64,000 nt of DNA from Demequina sp. (lineage in GTDB: Bacteria; Actinomycetota; Actinomycetes; Actinomycetales; Demequinaceae), in contig JANQAD010000001.1 of the NCBI GenBank assembly GCA_024707205.1, forward strand, positions 868,001 to 932,000. The letters are read 5' to 3'. The position numbers and the translations under genes were made by a program. Under the pieces are notes generated by a model. It saw only the letters and a program-made list of their open reading frames with translations, had not been told where the DNA came from and did not search any database. This document shows, piece by piece, positions 26,459 to 48,938 of the stretch (positions are counted from its first letter, which is position 1; each line of letters opens with the position of its first letter).

Positions 26459-26461
26459 ACT
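26456..26461 (+). promoter_or_regulatory. -10 element of the rhodanese gene overlapping a stop codon
   Basis: TAGACT starts with the TAG stop of the upstream permease and lies exactly 6 nt before the rhodanese ATG, predicting a leaderless mRNA. Confidence 0.5.
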
Positions 26462-26467
26462 CGCTCC

Positions 26468-26854
26468 ATGAACGAGTACGCGGGTGACATCACCACAACC
26501 GACGCATGGCAGATGGTCAAGGACGGCGCAGTGCTGGTGGACGTGCGCACCGTCGGCGAGTGGGAGCAGATCGGCGTGCCAGACACCTCCCAACTTGGCG
26601 TGGAGACCCACTTCATCGAGTGGGTGCATGCCGGCGGCATCCCCAACCCCGCCTTCATCGAGCAGCTCAAGGCGACCGGCGTCGAGCCGGGCACCCCGAT
26701 CGTGTTCCTGTGCCGCTCCGGCCAGCGCAGCATCGGAGCTTCCATGGCCGCAACCGCCGCCGGCTACGGCCCCGCGTACAACATCCTCAGCGGCTTTGAG
26801 GGACCAGCCGACGGGTGGGTTGCGGCGGGTTTGCCTTCCACCTCGCTCCGGTAG
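26468..26854 (+). CDS. Rhodanese-like domain protein
   Basis: 128 residues, a single cytoplasmic rhodanese domain for sulphur transfer or persulphide handling. The active-site loop FLCRSGQRSIGAS contains the catalytic Cys near residue 80, and VLVDVRTVGEWEQIGVPD is the conserved strand before it. No signal peptide. It appears to have its own leaderless promoter. Confidence 0.9.
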   Translation: MNEYAGDITTTDAWQMVKDGAVLVDVRTVGEWEQIGVPDTSQLGVETHFIEWVHAGGIPNPAFIEQLKATGVEPGTPIVFLCRSGQRSIGASMAATAAGYGPAYNILSGFEGPADGWVAAGLPSTSLR

Positions 26855-26900
26855 GTCGTACGAAAGGTCTTGACGCGGAGCACAGCCATGCCGAGTAAAG

Positions 26901-26940
26901 GCTGAGGCTCTCCTGGCGGTGAGCGCAGGAGAGCCTCAGC
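26901..26940. terminator. Long perfect hairpin after the rhodanese gene
   Basis: A 15-bp perfect stem (26901-26915 with 26926-26940) and 10-nt loop, beginning with GCTGAGGCTCTCCTG. No T run follows. It lies between convergent genes and probably ends the rhodanese transcript. Confidence 0.5.
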
Positions 26941-26978
26941 GGTGAGCGGCACCTTGACGGAAATATGCCGCCCCGGAA

Positions 26979-27015
26979 CCCTGCCGGTGCGAAGGGGGGA
27001 ATCGCACCGGCAGGG
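26979..27015 (-). terminator. Hairpin after the GH3 gene
   Basis: A 13-bp perfect stem (CCCTGCCGGTGCG with its complement at 27003-27015) begins 5 nt past the GH3 stop on the minus strand. It is followed by TTCC rather than a T run. Probable terminator of the GH3 transcript. Confidence 0.6.
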
Positions 27016-27019
27016 AGCC

Positions 27020-30000
27020 TTAGGAAACGGTGATCGTGTACTTCACCGTCTTGCCCTTGGCCTTGACCGAGATCTGCGTGGTACCCGTGCCCTTGGCAAC
27101 GAGACGACCCGCAGCGTCAACGGTCACGACCTTTGGGTTGGCCGAGCTGTACGTGACACTGACGTTGGTGACCGTGCTTGGCTGATACGTGCCGGTGATG
27201 TACGAAACAGCTCCCAGCTTCATCGTGCGAGGTACGGATGCGGTCAGCTTGGTCATCTTGGTCTTGGAGGCCTTGGAGACCACCGAGATCTTGATGCTTA
27301 CCGTCAACTTCTTGCCATTGGAAGCGGCCGACTTGGAGGTCACCGTAATCGTTGCGGATCCCGCCTTCTTCGCAGTCACGAGGCCATCGCTCGAAACCAC
27401 TGCGACCTTTGTGTTCGAAGACTTCCACGTGACCTTGCCGGAATACGAAGCCGGAAGGACGTCGCGGAAGTACAGACCGTCATAGAGACGGATGTGTGAG
27501 CCCTTGACGATGCGCAGTTGGGTCTGGTTGAGCTTGAGCTTGATGGGGCTCTTGTCCAGCACTGCTAGGTTCACCACCGCCTCTGAGAGGCTCGCTGCGG
27601 CAGCGTCGACCGCGGCCTGACTTGCCGTGGAGGACTGCAAGACGGAGCTCGCATTCGTCAACTGTGTCTGCAACGCCTGCCACGAGGGAGTCGTGTAGGT
27701 GTGGTCGACGTTTTTGAGCGTCCTGATGGTGTCGTAAAGGGTCTGCAATGCGACCTTGTTGACCTCAGGGGCCTTGACAGTGAGCCCGTCAATGGCGGCC
27801 TGCAAGTCACTGACAGCCACATCGAGCTGCGCCTGAGTGCGGTCGGCAACCGCCGCCGACTCCAGCTTCGCCGAAGCGAGAGCCGCGTCAAACGCCGCTA
27901 CCGAGTCGGTGGTGAAGCCACCCAGCTTGCCCGAAAGCGCGTCGCCAGCGGCGATGAGCACGTCGAGCGACTGCGTGTTTCCGCGCAGTTGAAGCTGAGC
28001 GAGCACCTCGTTGAGTGCAACAACCGCAGCGTCGACTTCGGCCTGGGTTGCGGTTGCGGAATCGAGAACTGCTTCCGCAGCCGCGATTGCCTCGTCCACT
28101 CCAGCCGCTGCCCACGAGCTCGTCGTGTAGTCGTCGGCGTTCAGCGCGTTGGCGGCGTTGATCGCGTCGGCGAGCGCCGACGACTCAACAGACGAGACCG
28201 TGAACCAATTGAGTCCAAGGTCAAGCCAACCGGCCACCGCGCCGTAGGTGCTGGAGATGTCGGTGTCAGGAACCGCGGGAGAGACGTCGAACACGAAGTA
28301 CACGTCGTTGACGCCCTCTGGTGCCGTAATCGGGAAAGTGATGTCCTTCCACGAGTACACCGGGTTCTGGTAGTCGCTGGCCGACGTGATGTCCATGTCG
28401 CCCTGTAGTTCGACTTCACCGATCTTCGTTCCGGTGACGGGGTCGCCAGCCATGACAGTCACCGTCGCAGGCTCCGAGGAGGCCTTCTGGTAACGGAGCG
28501 TCATGGAGGACGGCTTGTCGCCGAAGTCGACGTTGCGGTAGACCGCCCAGTCGCCGTTGCGGATGCGGTCAAGCTGCATGCCGACGTCATCTCCGCTGAC
28601 ATTGTCAGCACGGAGGTTGGCCGTCACAGCCGGAGCCACGTTGCCGCTACCGTCAAAAAGCTCTGCCTGGTAGCGACCCGCAGACAGGTCACGAACGTCC
28701 TGCCCTTGGATGGCGATCTTGGACGTCCAGGTCAGACCGTTCTGCGTAGTCGCGGTGACGTACACGTCACCGTTGCCCTCGCCAGTTGCCGTCAACGTCG
28801 CGTTGTACGCAATGTTGTTAGCTCCCGAGGTCTGACCCTCGATGAACCCAGCCCCCTGCACCGCGATGGTGGCGAGGTTGGTGGGGTTGCCGTCCTTGTC
28901 TGCAACCGTGAAGGTCACAGGACGCGCCGACGTGGGTGCGGGGTAAGTGACCGCACTGAGCTTGACGCTTCCCTGGTACTGGTAGATCGAACCAAAGTTG
29001 CCGAACTGGTTCGGTCCCCACGAGATGTCCGCAGGACGCGAATCGTATCCGGAGCGGATCACGACGGCCTCTGGGTTCGTTCCGGCCGCAACGGTCTGGT
29101 TCTTCAGCACGACATCGGCGGAAGCAAACGCAGTGCCACCAGAGGTGGTGAACGTCGCCGTCACCCGCACCGTGCCATCCGCCGTGCCCGTGGCCGTCAA
29201 CAGGCCTTGGTTGGTGATGGTGGCGAGCGTGGTGGCGTCTCCATTCGTGTCCGTGACCGACCAAGCGACGGCTCCGGTGACGACCGCAGGAGCCTTGATG
29301 GAGGACTCCATGACCAAGCTCCCGGCCTTCTGCTGGATCACAGCAGGGACCTTCACGTGGTACCGCGACAGCGACGTTGCGATGTTCGAGTTGTACGTGT
29401 TCACCGTGATGCCGATGTCACTCGCCTGAGCCGCAACCTTCGCGGTGCCGAGCTGGAACCAGGAGAACGCGACACCAGCCGACGGCGACACGAGGTAGAT
29501 GTCCGCCGTCCCCGAAGGAACACCGGTCAGGTCACCCGCGACGTTGACGAAGGTTTGCTGGTGCAGGGTCGACGGGATCGTGATCTCGCCGATCTTGACG
29601 CCGCCGGCTGCGGCGCTCTCTCCGTTCGCCCATACCTCGACGGTCGCCGGGGTTGCATTCGAGTTCGATGCGCGCATCGAGATCTCGGTGGGGTGGCTGG
29701 ACAGGTTTGCCTGTGCGTACTTGATCCACGCGCCGGCCTTGCGGACACTCACACCGTACGTGTTGTCCTCCATGACGGAGATCGGAATGACATCCGCCTG
29801 CGTGCCGTTGGCCGTCACGTCAGTGAACGAGTAGTCGTCGTAGTTGAACGCACGAGTCACGACGCCTAGGTTGCGCGCGGCGAGACCGGTTCCGGTCACG
29901 GTCAGCTTCGCCGTGGCGAGCTGGTCACCATCCGCGGACGAGGTCCCGGCGGTGATCGTGTAGGTACCGGGCTCGACCACGAACTTGCTCGTGGCGACGT

Positions 30001-32674
30001 CCCAGATGGCGAGGTCGGACAGACGGACAGGAATCGTCACGTCTGCGGACTGCGTCATACCGCCCGAGCTTCCGCCAATGTTGACCTTCTTGAAGCCAAC
30101 AAGCGTCTTGATCGGGTGCTCAACGCGAGAACTCGCCTTGCCGTCGAAGCTGGCGTACACCTGAACGACCTCGTCGCTCGACACGGTGCCTGTGTTCTTC
30201 ACCGACAGCTTGACGTTGACGGTGGTTCCGTCGATCGACGAATTCGCCACGCTCGTGGGAGCGAGCGACATGTTGTCGTAGTCAAAGTCGGAGTAGGACA
30301 GACCGTAGCCGAAGGGGTAGAGAACGTCGCCCTGGTGGTACTGGTAGGTGCGCTGACCCTCGATGACGTCGTAGTCAGAGATGGTCGGAAGGCTCTCGAG
30401 GCCGTCGTACCAGGTCTGGGTGAGTCGTCCGGAAGGCGCGTAGTCGCCAAACAGGACGTCGGCAACGGCGTCGCCGAGCTCCTGGCCCGCGTGGCTCGTG
30501 TACACGATGCCCTTCACGTTGGGGTTGGCCTTCAGGTCGGAGATGTCGAAGGTGTAGCTTCCGACGATCACGACCACCGTGTTGGGGTTCACCGCGGAGA
30601 CCGCGTTGATGAGGGCCTGCTGCTGCGCCGGGAGCATGATGCCGTCTCCCGTGGTCTGACGGTCGTACGTCTCGCGCGAGGTCAGGTGAGGCTCGTCGCC
30701 GACGGCAACGACTGCCACGTCAGCTCCCGTCGCCTTGGAAACGGCGTCTGCGATTCCGTCCTTGACGGTTACGAGCTGGAACTGACGGTTCGCACTCGTG
30801 CCGGAGCCGTTGTGCTGAACGTTGTACGGCGCCGCCGAGTTCACGTAGACCGCGGCCGCGGCCGTCGTAGCCACAGGCGAGGTGTTCTTTGAGAACCGCA
30901 TCGAGAAGGTGGAGCCGGACTTCGCGACAATGCCGAAGTTCTGGTAGGTGTACCACTCCTGTGAGGCGCGGTTAGGCGACTGGAATCCCGGTGGGTTCGC
31001 GTTCGCGACCAGACTGTTGCTCGGGCCAGTAGCAGAGACATACTTGTCCGTCGCTACGGAGCGCATGAGCAGATTGTTGTAGCCGTAGTCGTAGATCTGG
31101 AACTGCGCCTTCGGATCGCTGGTGTCGGTACCGGTACCGGTTAGCGGATCAGCCGCCGTCGCTCCGACGGTGAGGAACTTGTCGGCTGGAGTGCCAGTGC
31201 CATTCACGACCTGCACAGCGACCGTGTCGATGCCGCGCGTGAACGAGAAGGAGCCGTTGCCCGCCTCGACCTTGCTCTTCATTTCGTCGTCGATGAGTGT
31301 CACATAAGGGAACGTGCCGGAGTAGAAGTCCGTGGAGGACTCATCGCCGAGCGGTCCAGAGAGAGCAACATCGGCCGACTTCGACAGCGGCAGAATCCCG
31401 CCCTGGTTCTTGAGGAGAACCACCTGCTCACGCGCCGTTTGCAATGCCACCGCGCGGTGCTCCGGGGTGTCGAGTGCGTTGAGCTTGTTGAGCGTCTTGT
31501 AGGGGTTACTCGCGTCAGGATCGAGATCGCCGGCTTCGAGGCGAACGAGCAAGACACCATAGATTGACTTGTCGATGTCGGTCTCGGTGATCATTCCTCG
31601 GCCGAGGGCCTCGTAGATCCAGCTTCGAGAGGTTGGCGTGTCGGTGTCGCTGACCGTAAGGCCCGTGACTCCGTTCTTGATCGAGTCGGCCATTGCGGCT
31701 GCCTGGCCGACGCGGCTGTTCGGGTAGTACGCGTTGGATCCGCTGAGGTTTGCTGGGGATCCCGCATCGGTGACGCCGAAGAACGCACCCTCGGTGCCAC
31801 CCTGGACCCAGTCTCCGTACATCTCGTCAGAGACCTCCGGCGAGACCATCGTCGGCTTGCCATTGAGCAAGTTGTAGCCGGTCATCATGCTGTTGACGGC
31901 GCCCGCCTGGATTGGGTCCTTGAATACCTTGAAGTAGTACTCCTCGAGCGCGCGCTTCCCCGTGTTGGCCGAGTATGCAGTCCGCGAGGCCTCTTGACCG
32001 TACGCGGCGAAATGCTTGAGCGTCGGGATCGACTGGAGATAGCCGTCCTCGTTGCCCTGCATTCCCTCGCCCATTGCGGTGGCCATCTTGCTGATGAGCA
32101 ACGGGTCTTCACCCATCGACTCGGACACGCGTCCTGTGCGCGGGTCACGCGCAATGTCGACAACAGGGCCCCAGATGTCCACGCCGTTAAAGCGTGCGTC
32201 GACACTGTTGTAGGCGCGTGCCTCTTCACCGATGACGTCGCCAATCTGCTCCGCAAGATCCGGGTTCCATGTCATGCCGATGCCGCTCGCCTGCGGGAAG
32301 ACAGTGGCGTACCCGAGCCACGACAGACCGTGCAGGCCCTCTGTTCCAGTTCGGAATTGAGGCACACCCAAGCGAGTGACTGCCGCGCTGAACTGGTGAA
32401 GCAGGCCAACCTTCTCGTCAAGCGTCATCCTCGAGATAAGGTCGCGCACGCGCGCATCGTCGGAGAGCGACGTGTCCTGGAAGGGATAGTTGGCCGTGGT
32501 CGTGTCGTTCGCCTCGGCAAACACCAAGCTTGGGTTTTGTCCAGCGGAACCGGGCGCAGCCGCGCTCGGTGCCGCTACCACGCCTATTCCCAGCAGCGCG
32601 ATCAGCGCTGCCGAAACGCCTCGTGGTGTTACGCGCCTCCATCGAGGATGCGCGTTCGAACTCGGAAAAGACAT
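27020..32674 (-). CDS. Giant secreted multidomain GH3 glycosidase
   Basis: 1,884 residues, with a signal peptide ending near APSAAAPGS. The GH3 N domain (about 75-390) has the putative nucleophile Asp343 in GLTVSDTDTP. The C domain (about 420-800) is interrupted by an insert of about 180 residues rich in aromatic and Gly, possibly beta-trefoil-like. Next come an Fn3-like domain (about 815-905), a CBM6-like module (940-1080), Ig-like repeats (1085-1325), a second CBM6-like module (1331-1493), three FIVAR helical repeats (1497-1715) and two BIG_2-type domains (1735-1884). No LPXTG motif or membrane anchor. AGGAGG lies 6 nt before the ATG at 32674. Probably cleaves beta-linked glucose or xylose from polymer fragments outside the cell. 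Confidence 0.9.
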   Translation of the reverse strand: MSFPSSNAHPRWRRVTPRGVSAALIALLGIGVVAAPSAAAPGSAGQNPSLVFAEANDTTTANYPFQDTSLSDDARVRDLISRMTLDEKVGLLHQFSAAVTRLGVPQFRTGTEGLHGLSWLGYATVFPQASGIGMTWNPDLAEQIGDVIGEEARAYNSVDARFNGVDIWGPVVDIARDPRTGRVSESMGEDPLLISKMATAMGEGMQGNEDGYLQSIPTLKHFAAYGQEASRTAYSANTGKRALEEYYFKVFKDPIQAGAVNSMMTGYNLLNGKPTMVSPEVSDEMYGDWVQGGTEGAFFGVTDAGSPANLSGSNAYYPNSRVGQAAAMADSIKNGVTGLTVSDTDTPTSRSWIYEALGRGMITETDIDKSIYGVLLVRLEAGDLDPDASNPYKTLNKLNALDTPEHRAVALQTAREQVVLLKNQGGILPLSKSADVALSGPLGDESSTDFYSGTFPYVTLIDDEMKSKVEAGNGSFSFTRGIDTVAVQVVNGTGTPADKFLTVGATAADPLTGTGTDTSDPKAQFQIYDYGYNNLLMRSVATDKYVSATGPSNSLVANANPPGFQSPNRASQEWYTYQNFGIVAKSGSTFSMRFSKNTSPVATTAAAAVYVNSAAPYNVQHNGSGTSANRQFQLVTVKDGIADAVSKATGADVAVVAVGDEPHLTSRETYDRQTTGDGIMLPAQQQALINAVSAVNPNTVVVIVGSYTFDISDLKANPNVKGIVYTSHAGQELGDAVADVLFGDYAPSGRLTQTWYDGLESLPTISDYDVIEGQRTYQYHQGDVLYPFGYGLSYSDFDYDNMSLAPTSVANSSIDGTTVNVKLSVKNTGTVSSDEVVQVYASFDGKASSRVEHPIKTLVGFKKVNIGGSSGGMTQSADVTIPVRLSDLAIWDVATSKFVVEPGTYTITAGTSSADGDQLATAKLTVTGTGLAARNLGVVTRAFNYDDYSFTDVTANGTQADVIPISVMEDNTYGVSVRKAGAWIKYAQANLSSHPTEISMRASNSNATPATVEVWANGESAAAGGVKIGEITIPSTLHQQTFVNVAGDLTGVPSGTADIYLVSPSAGVAFSWFQLGTAKVAAQASDIGITVNTYNSNIATSLSRYHVKVPAVIQQKAGSLVMESSIKAPAVVTGAVAWSVTDTNGDATTLATITNQGLLTATGTADGTVRVTATFTTSGGTAFASADVVLKNQTVAAGTNPEAVVIRSGYDSRPADISWGPNQFGNFGSIYQYQGSVKLSAVTYPAPTSARPVTFTVADKDGNPTNLATIAVQGAGFIEGQTSGANNIAYNATLTATGEGNGDVYVTATTQNGLTWTSKIAIQGQDVRDLSAGRYQAELFDGSGNVAPAVTANLRADNVSGDDVGMQLDRIRNGDWAVYRNVDFGDKPSSMTLRYQKASSEPATVTVMAGDPVTGTKIGEVELQGDMDITSASDYQNPVYSWKDITFPITAPEGVNDVYFVFDVSPAVPDTDISSTYGAVAGWLDLGLNWFTVSSVESSALADAINAANALNADDYTTSSWAAAGVDEAIAAAEAVLDSATATQAEVDAAVVALNEVLAQLQLRGNTQSLDVLIAAGDALSGKLGGFTTDSVAAFDAALASAKLESAAVADRTQAQLDVAVSDLQAAIDGLTVKAPEVNKVALQTLYDTIRTLKNVDHTYTTPSWQALQTQLTNASSVLQSSTASQAAVDAAAASLSEAVVNLAVLDKSPIKLKLNQTQLRIVKGSHIRLYDGLYFRDVLPASYSGKVTWKSSNTKVAVVSSDGLVTAKKAGSATITVTSKSAASNGKKLTVSIKISVVSKASKTKMTKLTASVPRTMKLGAVSYITGTYQPSTVTNVSVTYSSANPKVVTVDAAGRLVAKGTGTTQISVKAKGKTVKYTITVS

Positions 32675-32793
32675 CTTTGTCCTCCTGCATAGATATTCAG
32701 TAGTGACTTCTGCAACCCATGTGGCGGGTGCCTGACTCCAGCGTCGGCTGCATCGTGCTTTACACACTCTGTTGCACTTAGCGGACCCCTTCG

Positions 32794-32807
32794 TCGAAGC
32801 GCTTGCG
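32794..32807. promoter_or_regulatory. Partial LacI-type operator upstream of GH3
   Basis: TCGAAGCGCTT matches the first 11 bases of the palindrome TCGAAGCGCTTCGA found three more times nearby; the last three bases differ. It lies about 120 bp upstream of the GH3 start. Confidence 0.5.
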
Positions 32808-33037
32808 TGGTGATCGTATGGGCCCCTTTCCATCGCTGTCAACGGCAAAATGCTTGCGCGTCTCGCAAGCTCCGTTCGCACAGAGGAGCAACATGGCTGG
32901 AATTTGTGCTCATGTGACGTTCGGATCGCAACGTTTCGTGACGCCCGCGCGGCCAGTGTCCGAACCGAACACGAGGCCACTTCGGCCAAGAGGCACATCG
33001 CAGAAGAGCACACAATCAGCATCTCGGCCCATTCCAA

Positions 33038-33051
33038 TCGAAGCGCTTCGA
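33038..33051. promoter_or_regulatory. LacI-type operator, copy 2
   Basis: A perfect palindrome TCGAAGCGCTTCGA ending 1 bp before TATGGT (33053-33058), a good -10. It would sit in the -35/-10 spacer of the promoter for the first lacI gene, as expected for repression. Confidence 0.75.
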
Positions 33052-33228
33052 GTATGGTGGTGCGATGGCGAGGCGAGCGGAATACACTTTCGTCCGCAGC
33101 CCTGTGCGGGCGCGCTGCCGACGCGGGGGACCGATGCCCACCCGCGCCCGTTCGTCGGGCAACGGCAACGTGCCGTTGCCCTCGGCACCACATTGTGTTT
33201 TCGATTGCGACGCGAGGCAGGGAGGACT

Positions 33229-34239
33229 GTGGCGACAATAAACGACGTCGCCCGCGCGGCAGGCGTCTCCACCAGCACTGTGTCCTATGTCTTGAGCGGG
33301 CGACGACCGATTTCGCCTGAGACACGTGCCCGCGTCGAGGCGAGCATCCTTGAACTTGGATACCGCCCGAATGCGGGCGCCAGAGCTCTCGCCTCTCGCA
33401 GGTCTCAAGTCATTGCACTCGTCGCGCCACTGCGCGCGGACAACGGTGTTCCGGTGATCATGCGGTTCGTCGCCGGCATCGCCACCACTGCGCGCTCTTA
33501 TGACCACGACGTGCTCCTCGTCACACAGGACGAGGGCGCTGCTGGGCTTGCCCGTGTAAGTGAGGGTGCGATGGTCGACGCCCTAATCGTGATGGACGTC
33601 GAGGCTAACGACAAGCGAGTCCCCGTGCTGCGAAAACTCGACAGGCCGTCAGTGCTCATTGGGCTTCCTGAAACCCCATCCGGCCTCACGTGCGTCGATC
33701 TGGATTTCGCAGGCGCCGGGTACGAGGCGGTTGCACATCTCGCGCAGCACGGGCACAGGAAGATCGCCCTGATCGGCCCGCCCGCGGCGGTCTACGAACG
33801 CGGCACCAGCTTTGCCACGCGAGTCTTGAGCGGCTTCGAGAGCGCAGTCGAACAGTTCGATCTCACGGCGACGACGACCGCATGCGAACTTACATTCGAT
33901 GGCGCATCGGCCGCACTCAAGAGGGTGCTCGAGGAAGTTCCTGACCTCACTGCTTTGGTCGTGCACAACGAGGCGACCTTGGGTCCGCTCCTCGGGCTCC
34001 TCCGCGCGACTGGAAAGTCGGTGCCCGGCGACATTTCGATCATCGCGATATGTCCCGATGACGTCGCGCTCGACCTGCCAGAGCCGGTCACCTCGATCGA
34101 CATCCCCGGCGAGCAGATCGGCGCGCTCGCAGTCGACATGGTCATGGGCATACTCGGCGGTCGTCCACGCGCCGAAACCCGCCTCCTGGCGCCGCACATC
34201 ACCGAGCGCGGAAGCTGTGCTTCGCCCGCCTCCGCCTAG
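33229..34239 (+). CDS. LacI-family transcriptional regulator 1
   Basis: 336 residues. The N-terminal helix-turn-helix reads ATINDVARAAGVSTSTVSYV then LSGRRPISPETRARV, followed by the hinge LGYRPNAGARALASRR. The rest is a periplasmic-binding-protein-like sugar domain. GTG at 33229 is chosen for GGGAGG a few nt upstream and because MATINDVA is the usual LacI start. It should bind TCGAAGCGCTTCGA and release it on binding a sugar. It is a tandem paralogue of the gene at 34392. Confidence 0.92.
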   Translation: MATINDVARAAGVSTSTVSYVLSGRRPISPETRARVEASILELGYRPNAGARALASRRSQVIALVAPLRADNGVPVIMRFVAGIATTARSYDHDVLLVTQDEGAAGLARVSEGAMVDALIVMDVEANDKRVPVLRKLDRPSVLIGLPETPSGLTCVDLDFAGAGYEAVAHLAQHGHRKIALIGPPAAVYERGTSFATRVLSGFESAVEQFDLTATTTACELTFDGASAALKRVLEEVPDLTALVVHNEATLGPLLGLLRATGKSVPGDISIIAICPDDVALDLPEPVTSIDIPGEQIGALAVDMVMGILGGRPRAETRLLAPHITERGSCASPASA

Positions 34240-34300
34240 TCTCCGGCGCCGCCGCGCGTGTCACGCCGCGCACGCTCTGGTCACAATTCGGTAACTGCCA

Positions 34301-34329
34301 TTGCAGGACCTCGTCTTCGCTCCTATGGT
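34301..34329 (+). promoter_or_regulatory. Promoter of lacI 2
   Basis: TTGCAG (34301-34306) and TATGGT (34324-34329) are separated by exactly 17 bp. Transcription should start near 34336, a few bases before the operator. Confidence 0.65.
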
Positions 34330-34341
34330 GGCACCAGCGCA

Positions 34342-34355
34342 TCGAAGCGCTTCGA
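34342..34355. promoter_or_regulatory. LacI-type operator, copy 3
   Basis: A perfect TCGAAGCGCTTCGA lying about +6 to +19 of the predicted lacI 2 transcript, a typical roadblock position. Confidence 0.8.
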
Positions 34356-34391
34356 AGAAATTCGGAAAGCAGAGCGACGAAGAGGTCGACC

Positions 34392-35417
34392 ATGGCAACG
34401 ATTGACGATGTGGCGAAGGCCGCAGGCGTGTCGATCAGCACGGTCTCCTATGCCCTCAGCGGAAAGCGCTCCATCACGTCAGCCACTCGCCAGCGGGTTC
34501 TCGACGCCGTGGTCACCCTTGGCTATCAGCCCACCGCAAGCGCCCGGATGCTCGCGGCCAACCGCTCACACATCCTCGCGGTCACCGCGCCATTGCATCG
34601 GGACACCGAGCAAACGGCTCACATGACCTTCGCGCTCGAGGTCACCAAGTCCGCGCGGTCCCATGGCTTCGACACGCTGCTGCTGGTCGACGACGACGCC
34701 GTCGCAGGTATGCGCCGCACCGCAGCGACGTCCCTCGCTGACGGCATGATCATCCTCGACGTCGATGCCCAGGACGAGCGCGCAGAGCTTGCGCGCTCGC
34801 TCGGGCATCCAGCTGTGTTCATCGGCATCCCTGCTCGCACAGAGGGCCTCACATGCGTAGACATGGACTTTGAAGCCGCCGCTCGGCTCGCTCTTGGTCG
34901 CCTCGTGGAACTCGGCCACCGCTCGATTGCCCTGATTTCGCACGAGTTGGGGGTGCTCGAACGTGGCTCCAACTTCCCCTTGCGATTTCTCGACGGCTTC
35001 ACGGCCCACGCCGAGGAACTCGGCATTGACTACGTCGTGACGCATCCCACGAGCAACAGGGCGCTTGAGCCGGTGGCCGATGTGATTGAGCGACTTCCAG
35101 ACGTAACCGCCATCGTGCTGAATACGTCGGCCGACGTGACGTCGACCCTGGTGCATGCGCTCGCTCAACATGGGCGTCGGGTTCCGCACGACGTGTCGGT
35201 GATCGCTGCGGGCGGAACTCTGCCCACGGGTCGGCTCGCAGTGCCGCTCGACGAAATTCCGATTGATCCGCAGGCGTCGTGCTGGACTGCCGTCGGGCTC
35301 CTTGTCGGAGCGGTAGAAGCTGGCGCAACGACGCCGCGCACGGTCCTCATTGAACCCAAGTACCACGAACACGGCTCCGTGGCGCCCCCTTTGACTTCTT
35401 CCCATAGGGCTTCTTGA
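34392..35417 (+). CDS. LacI-family transcriptional regulator 2
   Basis: 341 residues. The helix-turn-helix ATIDDVAKAAGVSISTVSYA then LSGKRSITSATRQRV is nearly the same as in regulator 1, while the sugar domain has diverged. The recognition helices are almost identical, so both probably read the same palindrome but may answer to different sugars. It is followed directly by the ABC importer operon carrying operator copy 4. Confidence 0.92.
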   Translation: MATIDDVAKAAGVSISTVSYALSGKRSITSATRQRVLDAVVTLGYQPTASARMLAANRSHILAVTAPLHRDTEQTAHMTFALEVTKSARSHGFDTLLLVDDDAVAGMRRTAATSLADGMIILDVDAQDERAELARSLGHPAVFIGIPARTEGLTCVDMDFEAAARLALGRLVELGHRSIALISHELGVLERGSNFPLRFLDGFTAHAEELGIDYVVTHPTSNRALEPVADVIERLPDVTAIVLNTSADVTSTLVHALAQHGRRVPHDVSVIAAGGTLPTGRLAVPLDEIPIDPQASCWTAVGLLVGAVEAGATTPRTVLIEPKYHEHGSVAPPLTSSHRAS

Positions 35418-35456
35418 TGCGACAAAGCAGCTTGGAGTTCGATCGCACGCACAACA

Positions 35457-35470
35457 TCGAAGCGCTTCGA
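35457..35470. promoter_or_regulatory. LacI-type operator, copy 4, before the ABC importer
   Basis: A perfect TCGAAGCGCTTCGA directly followed by TATGAC (35471-35476), a possible -10. Binding here would block the importer and alpha-xylosidase operon. Confidence 0.78.
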
Positions 35471-35529
35471 TATGACGCTCTTCCGTGTTGCTGTACCCAC
35501 GGCCGCCAGGCCACTACAAGGAGGTAGCA

Positions 35530-36852
35530 ATGAAGTACCGCAAGACAGCGCTCGTGGCGGCAGTGGCCGTTGGCGCAATCGCGCTCTCGGCGTGCTCGTC
35601 GAGCGACGGAGCATCGCCAAGCAGCACAGGAGGAGGCGACACCACCGACTGGAGCGGCCACACCCTCAACGTCATGCACTACGAGGGTGCCGATTCGGCA
35701 ATGGGTATCGCATGGAACAAGGCCATCGAGATCTTCGAGCAGCAGACCGGCGCAAAGGTGAACCTCGAGTCCACGTCGTTCGAGGACCTTAACGCCACCG
35801 CAGGACAGCTCTTCGACTCGAGCGACGCACCCGATGTCTCCGAGTACAACAAGGGCAACGGCACCGCGGGGCAACTCGCGGCGACAGGCGTGATCCAGAA
35901 CCTCGACGACGCCTACGCGAAGTACGGCTGGGCCGACAAGCTCGGTGCAGGAATCGACACCATCGCCAAGTACGACGAGAACGGAGTCATGGGCTCCGGT
36001 TCCTTCTACGGCGTCCCAAACTACGGCGAGTTCGTGTTCCTGTACTTCAACCAGGACATGTTCGACCAGTACGGGATTTCCGTGCCCACGAACGAGGCCG
36101 AGCTCGAGTCGGCGATGCAGACCTTTGTCGACAACGGCGTCACGCCGCTCACGACGTCGGCGCAGGAGTACCCGATGGGCCAGTTGTGGTACCAGCTCGC
36201 GCTGTCCCAGGCAGACCGCCAGTGGGTGAACGACTACCAGCTCTACGAGAACCCGGTCGACTGGCAGGGTCCTGAGATCAGCTATGCGACGCAGACACTC
36301 AACGACTGGGTTGGGAAGGGCTACATCAGCAAGGACGTCTCTGGCATGACGGCCGAGGACGCAGGCCTTCAGTTCATCAACGGCGAGGTCCCGATGTTCT
36401 ACTCGGGCTCGTGGTGGTACGGCCGCATGCTGTCCGATGTGACGAGCTTCAAGCTCGGCATCGCCAACTGGCCGGGCACCACTCTCACGCCGGGTTCTGG
36501 CGGCAACATCTGGGTGGTTCCAGTGCAGTCGAAGGAGCCTGAACTCGCTCAGATCTTCATCGACATTACGATGAGCCCCGAGGTTCAGGCACTGCTCGGC
36601 GAGTCCGGTGGCCTTCCTGTCGCGGCCAACACGGCGGACATCAAGGATGAGAACGCTCAGAAGCTCATCACGCTGTTCAACGAGGTCAACGACCGCGACG
36701 GCCTGTCGTTCTACCCCGACTGGCCAACCCCCACGTTCTACGGCGACCTCAACGGCGTCATGCAGGGTCTCGTGAACGGCACGTTCACTCCTGACCAGGC
36801 GCAGAGCGAACTCCAGAACTACTACGAGAGCTACGTCTCGACGGTCTCGTAG
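35530..36852 (+). CDS. Oligosaccharide ABC transporter substrate-binding lipoprotein
   Basis: 440 residues, family 1 solute-binding protein with lipobox LSACS, so anchored outside through Cys. The mature part starts WSGHTLNVMHYEGADSAMGI and has APDVSEYNKGNG and the aromatic-rich FYGVPNYGEFVFLYFN, which suits a carbohydrate site. AAGGAGG sits at the right distance. The operon continues with two permeases and the GH31 enzyme. No ATPase gene, so a shared one is expected. Likely ligand: a xylosylated glucose oligosaccharide such as isoprimeverose (inferred from GH31). Confidence 0.92.
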   Translation: MKYRKTALVAAVAVGAIALSACSSSDGASPSSTGGGDTTDWSGHTLNVMHYEGADSAMGIAWNKAIEIFEQQTGAKVNLESTSFEDLNATAGQLFDSSDAPDVSEYNKGNGTAGQLAATGVIQNLDDAYAKYGWADKLGAGIDTIAKYDENGVMGSGSFYGVPNYGEFVFLYFNQDMFDQYGISVPTNEAELESAMQTFVDNGVTPLTTSAQEYPMGQLWYQLALSQADRQWVNDYQLYENPVDWQGPEISYATQTLNDWVGKGYISKDVSGMTAEDAGLQFINGEVPMFYSGSWWYGRMLSDVTSFKLGIANWPGTTLTPGSGGNIWVVPVQSKEPELAQIFIDITMSPEVQALLGESGGLPVAANTADIKDENAQKLITLFNEVNDRDGLSFYPDWPTPTFYGDLNGVMQGLVNGTFTPDQAQSELQNYYESYVSTVS

Positions 36853-36864
36853 GCGAGTCCAAGG

Positions 36865-36894
36865 GCGGGGGTCCCGGTGCTCCGGGACCCCCGC
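36865..36894 (+). terminator. Strong intercistronic hairpin after the binding-protein gene
   Basis: GCGGGGGTCCCGG pairs perfectly with CCGGGACCCCCGC around a 4-nt loop. With no T run it is more likely a partial terminator or 3'-end stabiliser that raises binding-protein levels over the permeases. Confidence 0.6.
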
Positions 36895-36910
36895 TAAGGG
36901 GCACCACACC

Positions 36911-37879
36911 ATGACTATTGCAACCGAGAAGACGCGCCGCACGCGTCACGACGAGCCCGCTCGCATCCCTCAGCGCGGCTCCAACAAGGCCGGATACTGG
37001 CTGTACCTCATCCCAGGCTTCATCCTGCTCGCCGTGGTGATCATCTACCCGGTGATCCGGAACATCCGACTGAGCTTCTACCACTGGCGCGGAGGCCGCG
37101 CAGAGGAACACTTCGCTGGGCTCGAGAATTGGCGCGCACTGCTGCACGATGAAGAGTTCATCAGGTCCTTCACCAACATCATCTTGGTGATCGTCGCGAT
37201 GGTGTTCGTCCCAACGCTCGCAGGCCTCATCATCGCTGCGGTCCTCTTTGACGTCGTCGGCAGGCGATTTGGGGCGCGTCTCGCCAGCTTCCTGCGAGCG
37301 ACCTTCTACTTGCCACAGATTCTCCCCATCGCGGTCGCTGGCGTGATGTTCGCGTGGATCCTCAAACCAAACTCGCAAGGCGTGCTGAACCAGTTCCTCA
37401 GCAACGTGACGGGCTCCACTGTGGAGGTCAACTGGCTTGGCGGGCAGTACAGCACCGCGATGGCGTCGGTGATGGTGCTCATGATCTGGATCCAGCTGGG
37501 CTACCCAGTGGTGATCTTCATGGCCGCACTGCAGCGAGTCGACCCGCAGCTCTACGAGGCTGCGGAACTCGATGGCGCCAACTGGTACGAGCGTTTCCGC
37601 GCTATCACCCTTCCGATGATTCAACCCGAGGTCTTCGTGGTCGCACTCACCACAACTATTGCGGCGCTGAAGGTGTTTGCGCCGGTGTTCATTTTGACCG
37701 CGGGCGGACCGTCCAAGTCAACCTACGTTCCCTCGTATTACGCATATATCCAGTTCATTAAGGGGATAGACAAGGGCTACGCGGCCACCATCGCCTCTGC
37801 GGTGACGATCGTCGTCGTCTTAGTGGCCTTCGTCTTCGTTCGCGTGCAGACGCGGCTCGAGCGGAAGGAGGAGTCATGA
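36911..37879 (+). CDS. Sugar ABC permease (MalF-type)
   Basis: 322 residues with six membrane segments, starting after a basic N terminus at GYWLYLIPGFILLAVVIIYP. The EAA loop is QLYEAAELDGANWYERFRAI. Unlike the permease near 5 kb it lacks a periplasmic insert. Its stop overlaps the next ATG, so the two permeases are coupled. Confidence 0.93.
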   Translation: MTIATEKTRRTRHDEPARIPQRGSNKAGYWLYLIPGFILLAVVIIYPVIRNIRLSFYHWRGGRAEEHFAGLENWRALLHDEEFIRSFTNIILVIVAMVFVPTLAGLIIAAVLFDVVGRRFGARLASFLRATFYLPQILPIAVAGVMFAWILKPNSQGVLNQFLSNVTGSTVEVNWLGGQYSTAMASVMVLMIWIQLGYPVVIFMAALQRVDPQLYEAAELDGANWYERFRAITLPMIQPEVFVVALTTTIAALKVFAPVFILTAGGPSKSTYVPSYYAYIQFIKGIDKGYAATIASAVTIVVVLVAFVFVRVQTRLERKEES

Positions 37880-38772
37880 CCACCGCGACCACGGCGTCGG
37901 ACATACCCCCGCGAAAGGCGGCCGATCCCCTCTCCCGAAACAAGCGACGACCGCGCACGCCGATCGAGTGGGTGCTGCTTGTGCTGGCTATCCTCGCGGC
38001 ACTCGCGGTCGTGTTTCCCATGCTCCTGCTGCTTATCAACGCGTTCAAGTCACCGCAGGACTACGCGAACTCGAGTCCCATCGACCTTCCCAAGTCACTA
38101 GACATAACGGGACTCAAGGACTTTTGGAGCCGCTACAACTTCCCGCACGCATTGTGGAACTCCGTCTTCATATCCGGAATGGTCGCCGTCATCGCCGTCG
38201 TCGTCTCGGTACTGAACTCGTTCGCGATCGGGATAGGGCGCGTGCGCGGTCGCACATGGATCGTGCTGCTCTTCCTCATGGCGAATCTCGTGCCACAGGA
38301 GATGCTCTTCGACCCGCTGTTCAAGCTGTACGACAAGATGGGGCTGCTCTCCACGCCGTGGTCGGTGATCCTCACTTTCGTGGTGATCCAGTCGGCATTC
38401 GGCACCTACCTGCTGTCCTCGCTGCTCGGCACGTTCCCCAAGGAGATCCTTGAGGCAGCGGCCGTGGATGGGGCGCATCGTCGCCGCATCCTGCGATCGG
38501 TCGTTGTCCCCATCATCAGGCCCACACTTTCCGTCCTCATGGTGTTCTTCTTCATTTGGACCTGGAACGAGTTCCTGTTGCCACTCGCCTTCCTCAACAC
38601 GAGTGACTCCTTGACGGTTCCGCTCGTACTCGAACAGTTGAATGGGGAGCGGCAGACTGACACCACAACGCTCGTCGCTGGCACGCTCATCAGCATCATT
38701 CCCACCATCATCTTCTTCCTCATCTTCCAGCGAACGCTGACGAGGGGTATCACGGCAGGAGCAGTGAAGTAA
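37876..38772 (+). CDS. Sugar ABC permease (MalG-type)
   Basis: 298 residues, six membrane segments. The EAA loop reads ILEAAAVDGAHRRRILRSVV, and the ending TLTRGITAGAVK is standard for the family. AAGGAGG precedes the ATG. The stop TAA overlaps the GH31 ATG by one base, tying import to intracellular hydrolysis. Confidence 0.93.
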   Translation: MTTATTASDIPPRKAADPLSRNKRRPRTPIEWVLLVLAILAALAVVFPMLLLLINAFKSPQDYANSSPIDLPKSLDITGLKDFWSRYNFPHALWNSVFISGMVAVIAVVVSVLNSFAIGIGRVRGRTWIVLLFLMANLVPQEMLFDPLFKLYDKMGLLSTPWSVILTFVVIQSAFGTYLLSSLLGTFPKEILEAAAVDGAHRRRILRSVVVPIIRPTLSVLMVFFFIWTWNEFLLPLAFLNTSDSLTVPLVLEQLNGERQTDTTTLVAGTLISIIPTIIFFLIFQRTLTRGITAGAVK

Positions 38773-41035
38773 TGAAGTTCACCGACGGGTTCTGGCACTT
38801 GCGTCCAGGCGTCAGCGCGATCTATGCGCAAGAGGCCTACACCGTGGAGGCCGACGGAGATGCCCTGGTGATAGCCGCTCCATCTCGCGTCATCGAGAAG
38901 CGCGGAAATGTCCTCAATCTTCCGGTGCTCACCGTCACATTGAGTTCACCGGCGCAGGGCGTGGTGAAGGTCCGTATGGAGCACCACACGGGCGGCCGAC
39001 GCTCACCCGGCTTCGCGCTAAGCGAGGAGACCGGACACGGTCGGGTGACCGTGACGGAGACCGACGCGACACTCACCACGGGTTCCCTGCGCGCCATCGT
39101 GCGGCGAGGCGCGCCTTGGGAGCTGGCGTTCTTCTCCGGTGAGCGTCGGCTCACGGCGCTCGGACCGAAGTCGCTCGCGCACATGACTCTCGCGCCAGGC
39201 GCCCCTGTCGCCGCCGAGCCGGCCGGAATTTCAGGCGTTACGAGCACCGGACTAGCGGCAGCGTCTGGTTACTCTCTCGCTCAACTGGACCTCGGTGTGG
39301 GCGAGCTCATCTATGGGCTCGGTGAGCGCTTCGGCGCTTTCGTGAAGAACGGGCAAACCGTGGACATCTGGAACGCTGACGGCGGCACCAGCTCAGAGAT
39401 GGCCTACAAGAACATCCCGTTCTTCGTGTCTTCGCACGGCTACGGCGTCCTCGTCAACCAGCCAGAGCACGTGTCCTTCGAGGTGGGCACGGAGGCAGTC
39501 GAACGGGTGCAGTTCTCGGTGCCAGGCGAGGCGCTTGAGTTCCTCGTCTTCGATGGACCGACGCCGGGCGATGTCATCGAGCGCTATACGGGGCTCACCG
39601 GCAGGCCGGCGCGTGTGCCGGCATGGTCGTACGGGCTGTGGCTATCCACGTCCTTCACCACCGAATACGACGAAGCGACTGTCAACGAGTTTGTCGATGG
39701 CATGCGCGACCATGACATCCCTCTCAGCGTGTTCCACTTCGACTGCTTTTGGATGGAGGAGTTCAAGTGGACTGACCTCACGTGGGACGCGCGCATCTTC
39801 CCCGACCCGAAGGGGATGCTGCACCGTTTTCACGAGGACAAGGGCTTGAAGGTCTGCGCGTGGATCAACCCCTACATCGCGCAGCGCTCAGCTCTGTTCC
39901 GCGAAGCGGCTGATGCCGGGTACCTTGTCAAGCGGCCTGATGGAAGCATCTGGCAGTGGGACTGGTGGGTGGCCGGCATGGCGCTCGTCGATTTCACCAA
40001 TCCCTCGGCCACCTCGTGGTTCCAGGAGCACCTTCGTCGCCTCATCCGCGAAGGCGTTGACGCGCTCAAGACCGACTTTGGCGAGCGCATCCCCACCGAC
40101 GTGGTGTGGCACGACGGCTCCGACCCTCAGGCCATGCACAACCTCTACACGCAGCTGTACAACCGCGCGGTATTCGAGGTGCTCAAGGAGGAGAAGGGTG
40201 AAGGCGAGGCCGTACTCTTCGCGCGCTCGGCCACGGCCGGCGGTCAGCAGTTCCCCGTGCACTGGGGAGGGGACAACACCTCTACTTTCGAGTCGATGGC
40301 GGAGACGCTCCGCGGGGGCTCTCGCTCGCGTCTTCCGGGTTTGGGTACTGGAGCCATGACATCGGCGGCTTCGAGGGAACTCCCGATCCGCTCGTGTTCA
40401 AGCGCTGGGCCGCCTTTGGGCTGCTCTCGTCGCATTCGCGCCTGCATGGCTCAACGTCGTACCGGGTGCCGTGGGCCTTCGACGACGAGGCCGTTGACAT
40501 CACGCGCGACTTCGCCAAGCTCAAGAACTCGCTCATGCCTTATTTGTTCGCAGCTGGCGAGCACGCCGCGGCGACGGGAGTGTCCGTTGCCAGGCCGATG
40601 TACTTCGAGTTCCCAGACGATCCAGGGGTTGGGTACCTGGACAGGCAATACATGCTGGGTTCATCACTCCTGGTAGCACCCGTATTTTCGCCCGACGGGG
40701 TGGTCGCCTTCTACTTGCCATCTGGGCTGTGGACGGGCTTGCTTACCGGCGAGCGCGTGGAAGGCGGGCGCTGGATCCGGGAGACGCATGCGGCAGGGTC
40801 ACTGCCGGTCTACGTGAGGCCAGGCACGGTGCTCCCACTCGGCACGCGAGAGGATCGGCCCGACTACGACTTCACGACCGAGCTGGAGCTCGTTGTCTAC
40901 CCGGGAGGAGAAGGCTCTCGTTCGGTGACGGTCTTCTCCGCCTCTGGGGAACCAACAACCTTCTCGGTAACGATTGACGGGGACTCGGTAGCAGCGTCGG
41001 GTCCCAACGGCGAGGTCAGAGCGAGGTTGGCGTAG
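38772..41035 (+). pseudogene. yicI: GH31 alpha-xylosidase (YicI-like), one frameshift in this sequence
   Basis: About 754 residues once repaired, near the 772 of E. coli YicI. Cytoplasmic. It removes alpha-xylose from the non-reducing end of xyloglucan oligosaccharides. The nucleophile Asp435 is in KTDFGERIP and the acid/base Asp501 in HWGGD; the 66-residue spacing equals that in YicI. VFHFDCFWM and WINPYIAQRS are shared with YicI. The frame breaks at the G run 40314-40318: one extra G yields LRGGLSLASSGFGYWSHDIG, the expected sequence. So the gene is probably intact in nature. Last gene of the importer operon. Confidence 0.9.
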
Positions 41036-41076
41036 CGCCCAACCTAGCCCCAGCGTCGGGCCGGTAGCCTTTTCCC

Positions 41077-42282
41077 ATGAACGAGCCGTTGCGCCCCGAC
41101 ACCATCGCCGTGCACGCCGGCCAGCACCGCACGCCGTTCGAGGAGATGGCCGAGCCGATCTTCCTCACGCAGGGATACGTGTACGGAACAGCGGCCGAGG
41201 CGGAGGCCGCGTTCAACGGCGAGTTGGACCGGTACCAGTACAGCCGCTACGGCAACCCCACCGTCTCGATGTTCGAGGCGCGGCTCGCGGCGATCGAGGG
41301 CGCGGAGGACTGTTTCGCCACCGCGACCGGCATGGCCGCGGTGTTCGTCTCGCTCGCGTGCGTGCTGAAGCAGGGTTCGCGGCTCGTGGCGTCGAAGGCG
41401 CTGTTCGGCTCGAGCCTCGTGGTGTTCAACGAGTACTTCGCCAACTGGGGCATCACGGTGGATTACGTCGACGGGCACGTGCCGGCCTCGTGGGAGGCCG
41501 CGCTCGCGACGCCGGCAGACGCGGTGTTCGTCGAGTCGCCGTCCAACCCGATGCAGGACCTTGTTGACATCGCGTTCGTTGCGGAGCTCTGTCGCAGCGC
41601 AGGGGCGCTGTTCATCGTGGACAACGTGTTCGCGACGCCGTTGGGCTCGCGGCCCTTGGAGCTTGGGGCCGACGCTGTTGTGTACTCCGCGACCAAGCAC
41701 ATCGACGGTCAGGGTCGGGTTCTTGGTGGCGCGGTGCTCGGGTCTGCGGAGTACGTAGAGAAGGTGCGAACCATGGTGCGGACCATGGGCGCGACGATGT
41801 CTCCCTTCACCGCGTGGGTGCTGGGGAAGTCGCTTGAGACGCTTGGCGTGCGCGTGCGCGCGCAGGCCGCGACGGCTCTTGCTCTGGCCGAGTGGCTCGA
41901 CGGCGACCCGCGCGTTGCGGTGACGCGGCATCCGTTCTTGGCGTCTCATCCTCAGCACGAGCTGGCGAGGCGGCAGATGACGCTCGGCGGCACCTTGGTG
42001 ACGATCGACATTGCGCTGCCTCACGGGGTGGATCCGCACGGCGACGAGGCCAAGGCCGCGACGTACCGGTTCCTGGATGCACTGCGCGTCTTTGCCATCG
42101 CGAACAACCTCGGCGACGCGAAGTCCATCGCGACGCACCCCGCGACCACGACCCACCGGCGCCTCGGGCCCGAGGGGCGCGCGGCGGTCGGGATGTGCTC
42201 CGCGACCGTGCGGCTGTCCATCGGGCTCGAGGATGTCGAGGACCTGCGGGCGGATATCGATCAGGCGCTCTCGGCGGTGTAA
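41077..42282 (+). CDS. metZ: O-succinylhomoserine sulfhydrylase
   Basis: 401 residues, a Cys/Met-metabolism PLP enzyme. It makes homocysteine from O-succinylhomoserine and sulphide. RYQYSRYGNPTVSMFEARLA and CFATATGMAAVF precede the PLP lysine in VYSATKHIDGQGRVLGGA, a loop characteristic of MetZ rather than MetB. A plain O-acetylhomoserine enzyme is the main alternative. TAGCCT lies 6 nt before the ATG, so leaderless. No SAM riboswitch fits in the 41-bp spacer, which holds a copy of the dispersed motif. Confidence 0.85.
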   Translation: MNEPLRPDTIAVHAGQHRTPFEEMAEPIFLTQGYVYGTAAEAEAAFNGELDRYQYSRYGNPTVSMFEARLAAIEGAEDCFATATGMAAVFVSLACVLKQGSRLVASKALFGSSLVVFNEYFANWGITVDYVDGHVPASWEAALATPADAVFVESPSNPMQDLVDIAFVAELCRSAGALFIVDNVFATPLGSRPLELGADAVVYSATKHIDGQGRVLGGAVLGSAEYVEKVRTMVRTMGATMSPFTAWVLGKSLETLGVRVRAQAATALALAEWLDGDPRVAVTRHPFLASHPQHELARRQMTLGGTLVTIDIALPHGVDPHGDEAKAATYRFLDALRVFAIANNLGDAKSIATHPATTTHRRLGPEGRAAVGMCSATVRLSIGLEDVEDLRADIDQALSAV

Positions 42283-47372: not shown

Positions 47373-47388
47373 TTGTTAGGCTGGCCAT

Positions 47389-48926: not shown

Positions 48927-48938
48927 TACGTTGCGAGC

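Follow-up and report, generated by a model that had tools for sequence, protein, structure and literature searches.

Tandem LacI-family regulators of different ancestry and a probable shared operator at a predicted xyloglucan locus of Demequina sp.

Introduction

GalR and GalS of Escherichia coli act as two sensors, and CebR belongs to the LacI family. Here, we describe a locus of Demequina sp. (assembly GCA_024707205.1, contig JANQAD010000001.1) in which two tandem genes of this family, LacI-1 and LacI-2, and three exact copies of a 14-bp palindrome, TCGAAGCGCTTCGA, lie beside the genes for a GH3 glycosidase, an ATP-binding cassette (ABC) importer and a GH31 alpha-xylosidase. The window, to which all positions refer, is the whole stretch of 64,000 nucleotides that was analysed (868,001 to 932,000 of the contig).

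Pairs of LacI-type proteins that share operators are already known, namely GalR/GalS, AraQ/MalR1 and GvmR/GvmR2; here and below, statements on published systems refer to parts of the papers cited. GalR and GalS are isorepressors of one sugar regulon, with GalR sites before both galR and galS, but their 16-bp operators are scattered over the genome (PMC5110547), whereas the Demequina operators form one compact locus whose regulators differ in ancestry. AraQ and MalR1 of Bifidobacterium breve are two LacI proteins with DNA-binding parts that are about half identical, with near-identical operators and, as gel shifts indicated there, with mutual control; they govern central carbon metabolism through large overlapping regulons, however, and not, as the tandem pair of Demequina, one sugar locus (PMC6882875). 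In Streptomyces caniferus, the actinobacterial LacI proteins GvmR, GvmR2 and ScnR1 compete for sites built on a 14-bp palindrome and cross-regulate, although they serve a natural-product cluster and GvmR is an activator (PMC12292694). The CebR regulon of Streptomyces also combines a 14-bp palindrome, with the same AGCGCT core, and plant polysaccharide enzymes, but its operator, TGGGAGCGCTCCCA, has other outer bases, and a single regulator serves cellulose (PMC5332605). GntR of E. coli recognises IdnR sites (PMC4052901). An alpha-xyloside locus of Caldicellulosiruptor has two AraC-family regulators, and, as cited in the paper describing it, xyloglucan use in Ruminiclostridium is under a two-component regulator (PMC8579813). 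The 14-mer TCGAAGCGCTTCGA had no occurrence in the literature searched, its 12-mer core was absent among the matches listed, and no LacI regulon of this kind was among the titles and abstract openings listed.

Results

A rare palindrome confined to one locus

The gene order is GH3 (minus strand), operator 1, LacI-1, operator 2, LacI-2, operator 3, the importer binding protein, two permeases and GH31 (Table 1). The palindrome occurs exactly three times in the genome of 2,538,242 bases, and all three copies lie in this locus, at 33038-33051, 34342-34355 and 35457-35470, the first upstream of LacI-1 and the divergent GH3, the second upstream of LacI-2 and the third upstream of the importer. This agrees with a preliminary description of the window, which had reported three exact palindromes and had placed sites before both regulators, the importer and GH3; that the palindrome might be frequent and unrelated to sugar genes, which the same description had named as a ground for refutation, is not what the genome search returned. 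Copies with one mismatch are absent from the genome: when up to two mismatches are allowed, 32 sites result, and the 29 that are not exact have two each. A reversed control pattern was not found in the Demequina sp. genome and, across the 44 genomes of the genus, turned up a single time, in G004. TCGAAGCGCTTCGA is an even palindrome with a central CG and lies near regulator and target genes, as the rule for operators of the LacI/GalR family requires (PMC4052901). More than 75% of the sites of this family fall 140 to 30 bp upstream (PMC4052901), and operators 2 and 3, 36 and 59 nt before start codons, sit in the zone that holds most of them. Operator 1 is 177 nt from the start codon of LacI-1 and 363 nt from that of GH3, a position from which it could serve both genes.

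The palindrome accompanies each regulator type in other genomes

Regulators scoring at least 250 bits against LacI-1 were taken as the LacI-1 type, and those scoring at least 200 bits against LacI-2 as the LacI-2 type. The loci of both types were found by protein matches, except L085 and L086, which were fetched for the palindrome and of which L086 is one of the 65 LacI-1-type loci. Dropped before counting were duplicates (L121, L149 and L150), the LacI fragment in L128, two loci under the bit-score cut (L067 and L154), L061, with a LacI in two pieces and two exact palindromes, and L066, with a LacI cut short and one exact palindrome. Exact copies of TCGAAGCGCTTCGA are present in 47 of the 65 LacI-1-type loci (94 sites) and in 28 of the 41 LacI-2-type loci (46 sites); if one mismatch is allowed, the numbers rise to 58/65 and 38/41. 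As a control, 629 palindromes with permuted half-sites were found in a mean of 0.01 loci and in at most one locus per set. The loci inside each set are kin and the counts are, therefore, not independent events. Because each type is associated with the palindrome in other genomes, the prediction that LacI-1 and LacI-2 share an operator finds good comparative support.

Of the 44 Demequina genomes, 35 hold the palindrome exactly, with two copies in 27, one in 6 and three in 2. Among the 37 with a GH31 match it is exact in 35 and has one mismatch in G010 and G019, while none of the 7 genomes without GH31 has an exact copy. The GH31 match of G037 (57%) is on a different contig from LacI-2, G041 is a half-complete genome with GH31 in pieces, and G046, of another genus, has one exact palindrome and no GH31 match. 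In 30 loci picked by the palindrome alone, one per genome, a queried gene lay within 1.5 kb in 26 (24/24 in Demequina and 2/6 in other families), and a GH5 gene follows just downstream in L020; L017 (in a transketolase gene), L021 (near GH10, not upstream) and L022 (WYL/TatC) resemble chance occurrences. The third exact palindrome of G007 (L084:12737) has in its neighbourhood a LacI that is less closely related (31%), together with other permease genes.

Among LacI proteins of the family outside both clades, those of the STVSY and STASY types with Arg-15 are mostly preceded by TCGAACCGGTTCGA, TCGAATCCATTCGA or TCGAACTAGTTCGA, and a paralogue with Gln-15 is preceded by TCGATGCGCATCGA; for L079, no clear upstream site was found. 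The outer TCGA tracks the helix that these proteins share, the inner bases are variable, and LacI-1 and LacI-2 have the inner bases in common too. Since most of the Arg-15 and Gln-15 paralogues have other inner bases, the sharing between LacI-1 and LacI-2 looks specific. A generic operator for all STVSY-type LacI proteins was rejected for most of them by the paralogue sites, L081 coming within one base. Demequina Arg-15 LacI proteins with palindromes of their own (TCGAACCGGTTCGA, TCGAATCCATTCGA, TCGAACTAGTTCGA) stand beside other ABC importers in L069-L078 and L080.

Like reading heads, unlike effector domains

Both regulators are LacI/GalR-family proteins, with an N-terminal LacI helix-turn-helix and a periplasmic-binding-protein-like effector domain; LacI-1 matches PF00356 and PF13377 with 65 and 94 bits and LacI-2 with 58 and 65 bits, all over the cut-off. 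They are 39% identical over 335 aligned positions, unevenly distributed between the DNA-binding part (36/58 positions) and the effector part (94/275), which bears out the different sugar domains proposed earlier. The near-identical recognition helices of that proposal are likewise found: residues 16-20 read STVSY in both proteins and are invariant through all rows of both clades, and residues 15 (T in LacI-1, I in LacI-2) and 21 (V and A, respectively) differ. At position 15, 97% of the LacI-2 clade has I, and the LacI-1 clade has P, T, A or other residues. By LacI numbering, residues 15, 16 and 20 correspond to positions 17, 18 and 22, which set specificity in the E. coli lac repressor; the hinge, L54-A55, is also common to the two proteins. 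No other STVSY helix was seen among the 9 of 10 further LacI proteins of the genome that were displayed, the tenth being L016. In that one genome encodes two homologues whose DNA-reading residues 16-20 match (residue 15 differs), LacI-1 and LacI-2 resemble known isorepressor pairs.

At 16 of 275 positions of the effector part, both clades are conserved to 80% or more but differ in the residue, and several of these positions are presumably homologous to the sugar pocket. It is plausible, from the diverged effector domains, that LacI-1 and LacI-2 sense different ligands. The earlier suggestion of one palindrome read by two sensors is partly supported: each regulator type is associated with the palindrome elsewhere, and two sensors are a plausible reading of the divergence. 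A decayed partner was considered and discarded: conserved clade positions are changed at 2/78 and 3/67 in the two window regulators, and neither departs unusually from its clade.

A predicted importer and enzymes for xyloglucan oligosaccharides

The binding protein and the two permeases form an operon-like run with GH31 and represent a dedicated oligosaccharide importer of predicted specificity. GH31 scores 794 bits against the alpha-xylosidase model NF007940 (cut-off 606). GH3 has a signal-peptide-like N-terminus (judged by eye) and Fn3-like, CBM6, FIVAR and Big_2 domains; its best NCBIfam model is the beta-xylosidase Xyl3A, with 410 bits, far below the cut-off of 1250, so that GH3 is no more than a candidate beta-xylosidase. 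Relatives with the same palindrome and regulator type add GH42, GH95 and GH1 or GH3 (Pfam-confirmed in L085/L086), and in one genome a GH5 gene with CBM_X2 follows the palindrome at a distance of about 70 nt. GH31 together with GH42, GH95 and GH1 or GH3 is an enzyme set for galactosylated and fucosylated xyloglucan side chains. Gene content, with the caveats given in the Discussion, makes xyloglucan oligosaccharides the most likely substrate. Elsewhere in the genome, there is a GH42 gene, with a second match that is weak, and there are five matches of GH5 type; a genome-wide search found no exact or one-mismatch operator at these distant genes. In five Demequina loci (L059, L063, L064, L066 and L191), LacI-2 and GH31 are kept together without the binding protein and permeases that separate them elsewhere.

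LacI-2 is native and LacI-1 looks acquired

LacI-2 clusters with its Demequina orthologues (100/100), with synteny in the genus, and most of the relatives compared have sites that correspond to operators 2 and 3; LacI-2 is native to Demequina, and so is the importer operon. In the tree of LacI-1, for which the loci of Actinoplanes type were reduced by ten, LacI-1 groups with 18 rows, all from Micromonosporaceae (98/93), in a set of 19 that is separate from the LacI-1 types of its own order; one Micromonosporaceae protein (L128) is placed elsewhere. Tandem duplication in Demequina as the source of the pair was rejected, LacI-2 being in the Demequina clade and LacI-1 with Micromonosporaceae. A search of 47 genomes of the family gave no other genome above 46% identity to LacI-1, and among the 46 other family genomes no protein exceeded 36% to GH3. 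The closest GH3 relatives among 394 genomes of the class, at 61-62%, are in G514 and G542, from one genus of another order, and at E <= 1e-150 GH3 had no match in genomes of its own order among those 394.

Neither this GH3 nor a second such LacI was found near LacI-2 in any of 23 other Demequina loci. Seven of these (L047, L048, L050, L051, L052, L055 and L057) have an FtsX-type gene like that of the window within 2 kb upstream of LacI-2, 5 of the 7 together with the ABC ATPase (70-84%); in the window, GH3 and LacI-1 stand between the FtsX-type and ATPase genes and LacI-2. GH3 and LacI-1 thus look like an insertion, with LacI-1 of an acquired type, and we infer a single event. No clear step in G+C from 26000 to 42000 marks a foreign composition of the insertion. 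A serpin gene (PF00079) at 20120-21370 of the window also occurs upstream of LacI-2 in 3/23 Demequina loci (L048, L052 and L053).

A similar layout and other pairs

A scan for tandem pairs covered 144 loci (L047-L166, L172-L191 and L204-L207), some of them short and a few duplicates (L149/L051, L150/L049 and L121/L085/L086). Two LacI-type helices within 4 kb were found in two, L204 and L205, with a pattern that is not exhaustive and missed an unrelated LacI in L118. They surround the GH3 relatives of G514 and G542 (63% in this comparison). Both loci read GH3, palindrome, LacIa, palindrome(s), LacIb, binding protein, permease A, permease B and GH31, and the palindromes flank LacIa, one site being exact and the rest having one or two mismatches; the two genomes are of one genus and so count as one case. 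LacIa and LacIb are 48% identical and sisters of each other (100/100), and are therefore not orthologues of LacI-1 and LacI-2, for which descent from LacIa and LacIb is ruled out. A survey of 396 genomes scored up to 5 candidates per genome, so that its counts are lower bounds. One LacI of each type at separate places was found in G040 (L064 and L067) and G364 (L172 and L173), and two LacI-1-type genes at separate places in G253, G171 and G076; in G303, a single gene matched the LacI-1 and LacI-2 queries alike.

A partial fourth site and other features of the region

The fourth, partial site of the preliminary description exists as an imperfect copy with 11 contiguous operator bases near the expected start point of GH3. 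It ranks 10th in the window by weight matrix and is, therefore, not an operator on sequence alone, and a fourth full operator at 32794 was dropped. It lies 5 nt downstream of a promoter-like match for GH3, the only such match in 32600-35600 (minus, 32842-32813) vs. a mean of 0.4 in shuffles. A run of 11 contiguous operator bases arose in 0.0003 of the shuffles of the surrounding 363-bp stretch, and any site with up to 3 mismatches in 0.026. On account of this position the site is kept as a candidate that may be a second, weak operator of GH3; what was claimed of it thus holds for its presence and placement, the site itself being weak.

No Rfam match at gathering thresholds was found in 26000-42000. 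In the LacI-1 leader, at 33158-33180, two perfect 10-bp arms around a 3-base loop (GGCAACGGCA/TGCCGTTGCC) make up an inverted repeat, and no T run follows it. This 23-bp inverted repeat was rejected as a repeated genome motif, with one exact copy and one with 3 mismatches. Farther along the window, at 47373-50657, two adjoining genes have weak xylose-isomerase-like TIM-barrel matches, both below the curated cut-off; the second also has an APH kinase match above the cut-off.

Table 1. Features of the locus, in window coordinates.
Feature	Position	Strand	Remarks
GH3 glycosidase gene	27020..32674	minus	1884 aa, start at 32674; Pfam
Imperfect operator copy	32794..32807		11/14, 11 contiguous bases; near expected GH3 start point
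Promoter-like site for GH3	32813..32842	minus	TTGACA, 18 nt, TACGAT; 10/12 positions; consensus match only
Operator 1, exact TCGAAGCGCTTCGA	33038..33051		between divergent GH3 and LacI-1
LacI-1	33229..34239	plus	336 aa, GTG start; Pfam LacI and Peripla_BP_3
Operator 2, exact TCGAAGCGCTTCGA	34342..34355		36 nt ahead of LacI-2 start codon
LacI-2	34392..35417	plus	341 aa; Pfam
Operator 3, exact TCGAAGCGCTTCGA	35457..35470		59 nt ahead of binding-protein gene
ABC importer solute-binding protein	35530..36852	plus	PF13416/PF01547
ABC importer permease A	36911..37879	plus	PF00528
ABC importer permease B	37876..38772	plus	PF00528
GH31 alpha-xylosidase, two frames in assembly	38772..41035	plus	NF007940 match

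Discussion

We propose that LacI-1 and LacI-2 are an isorepressor pair, both binding TCGAAGCGCTTCGA, with diverged sugar sensors, a later-acquired LacI-1/GH3 and AND-like induction, and on balance we consider this proposal, taken as a whole, to be probable. With equivalent DNA-reading heads, both proteins would occupy the TCGAAGCGCTTCGA operators, and through the three operators both would control the two repressor genes as well as the divergent GH3 and the operon of importer and GH31; with both proteins on all three sites, each would repress itself and the other. LacI-2 would be the resident regulator of an operon for the import and trimming of alpha-xylosylated, most likely xyloglucan, oligosaccharides, which GH3 and LacI-1 would have joined later by horizontal transfer, using the existing operator. 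As an operator could be held by either repressor, both ligands should be required for full expression, and the importer would stay silent until LacI-1 and LacI-2 had both let go.

Several observations weigh against this proposal. Operator 1, at 177 nt ahead of LacI-1, is beyond the usual distance. At up to one mismatch, 7/65 LacI-1-type and 3/41 LacI-2-type loci have no site, and the sole such site in L181 is within GH31. An exact palindrome is found up to 400 bp upstream of 11/66 LacI-1-type vs. 21/41 LacI-2-type genes, and in LacI-1-type loci the palindrome often precedes the targets rather than the regulator. The Arg-15 regulator L081 has TCGAAGCGGTTCGA upstream, one base off the palindrome. 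L204 and L205, unlike the window, have no site with up to two mismatches before the importer binding protein. The sister relation of LacI-1 to the protein of Rugosimonospora africana is not strongly supported (92/71), and LacI-1 and LacI-2 could sense one and the same ligand. As to the substrate, of the candidates for a beta-galactosidase, a beta-glucosidase and an endo-xyloglucanase only GH3 lies beside the operator in the Demequina sp. genome. In addition, the GH31 frame is broken at a run of G (40314-40318), after the conserved LRGG, where 20/20 Demequina relatives are intact; the first 517 or so residues of 38772-40676 align with relatives, the remainder lies in another frame, and an open frame spans 40394-41035. 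The break, of which the preliminary description makes no mention, is either a sequencing error or a true loss. The xyloglucan regulon of the preliminary description therefore stands on the gene content here and in relatives, with a local alpha-xylosidase that is frame-shifted.

Should the two proteins sense the same oligosaccharide, LacI-1 could be a newly acquired equivalent of LacI-2 at the same operator, adding no second input, and the pair would be redundant or transitional, with one copy that may be lost. Both types do occur with alpha-xylosidase clusters in other genomes, and since no other genome in the family search exceeds 46% to LacI-1 the pair may be young. Against such redundancy, which we regard as possible but on the unlikely side, speak the clade-consistent differences at 16 of 275 effector positions, the lack of decay in either copy and the paired layout beside a related GH3 in two other genomes. 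The sites may also be divided between the proteins, LacI-1 acting on GH3 and itself through operator 1 and LacI-2 on itself and the importer through operators 2 and 3, by way of flanking bases or local concentration. The position of operator 1 between GH3 and LacI-1 and the counterparts of operators 2 and 3 in most relatives would fit; the identity of the three 14-bp cores, of residues 16-20 and of the hinge argues for a sharing of all sites, and we find such a division distinctly unlikely. It is more improbable still that one partner is an activator or anti-repressor, as GvmR is reported to be against GvmR2. Competition of a LacI activator with repressors for a shared 14-bp palindrome has been published (PMC12292694), and operator 1 is far upstream of LacI-1, but operators 2 and 3 occupy the usual zone of LacI-family sites (PMC4052901).

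The identity of the substrate is a separate matter. A different alpha- or beta-xyloside, with GH3 as a beta-xylosidase, would suit the Xyl3A model as the best match of GH3, and GH31 alone is compatible with any alpha-xyloside. The company of the palindrome and regulator type in relatives, which comprises GH31, GH42, GH95 and GH1 or GH3, and the GH5 gene with CBM_X2 that follows the palindrome in one genome, do not suit it, and we think it unlikely that the substrate is other than xyloglucan.

The observation of the preliminary description is correct and more specific than a reading of one sequence could know. We suggest, tentatively and as a possibility short of probable, that a two-reader operator arose twice and independently beside one long GH3 family, in actinobacteria of two orders. 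In one order a duplication would have supplied the second tandem LacI repressor on the palindrome, and in the other a captured foreign regulator that could already read the resident operator; the outcome would be an AND-type gate that governs the use of a plant cell-wall polysaccharide. The locus offers a compact natural case of two likely sensors for one operator, the second reader seemingly captured by horizontal transfer, and relatives that hold one regulator type only are natural controls. The paralogues, in turn, give testable predictions as to which residues set which operator bases. More broadly, TCGAAGCGCTTCGA defines the predicted operator of a widespread actinobacterial alpha-xyloside/xyloglucan regulon.

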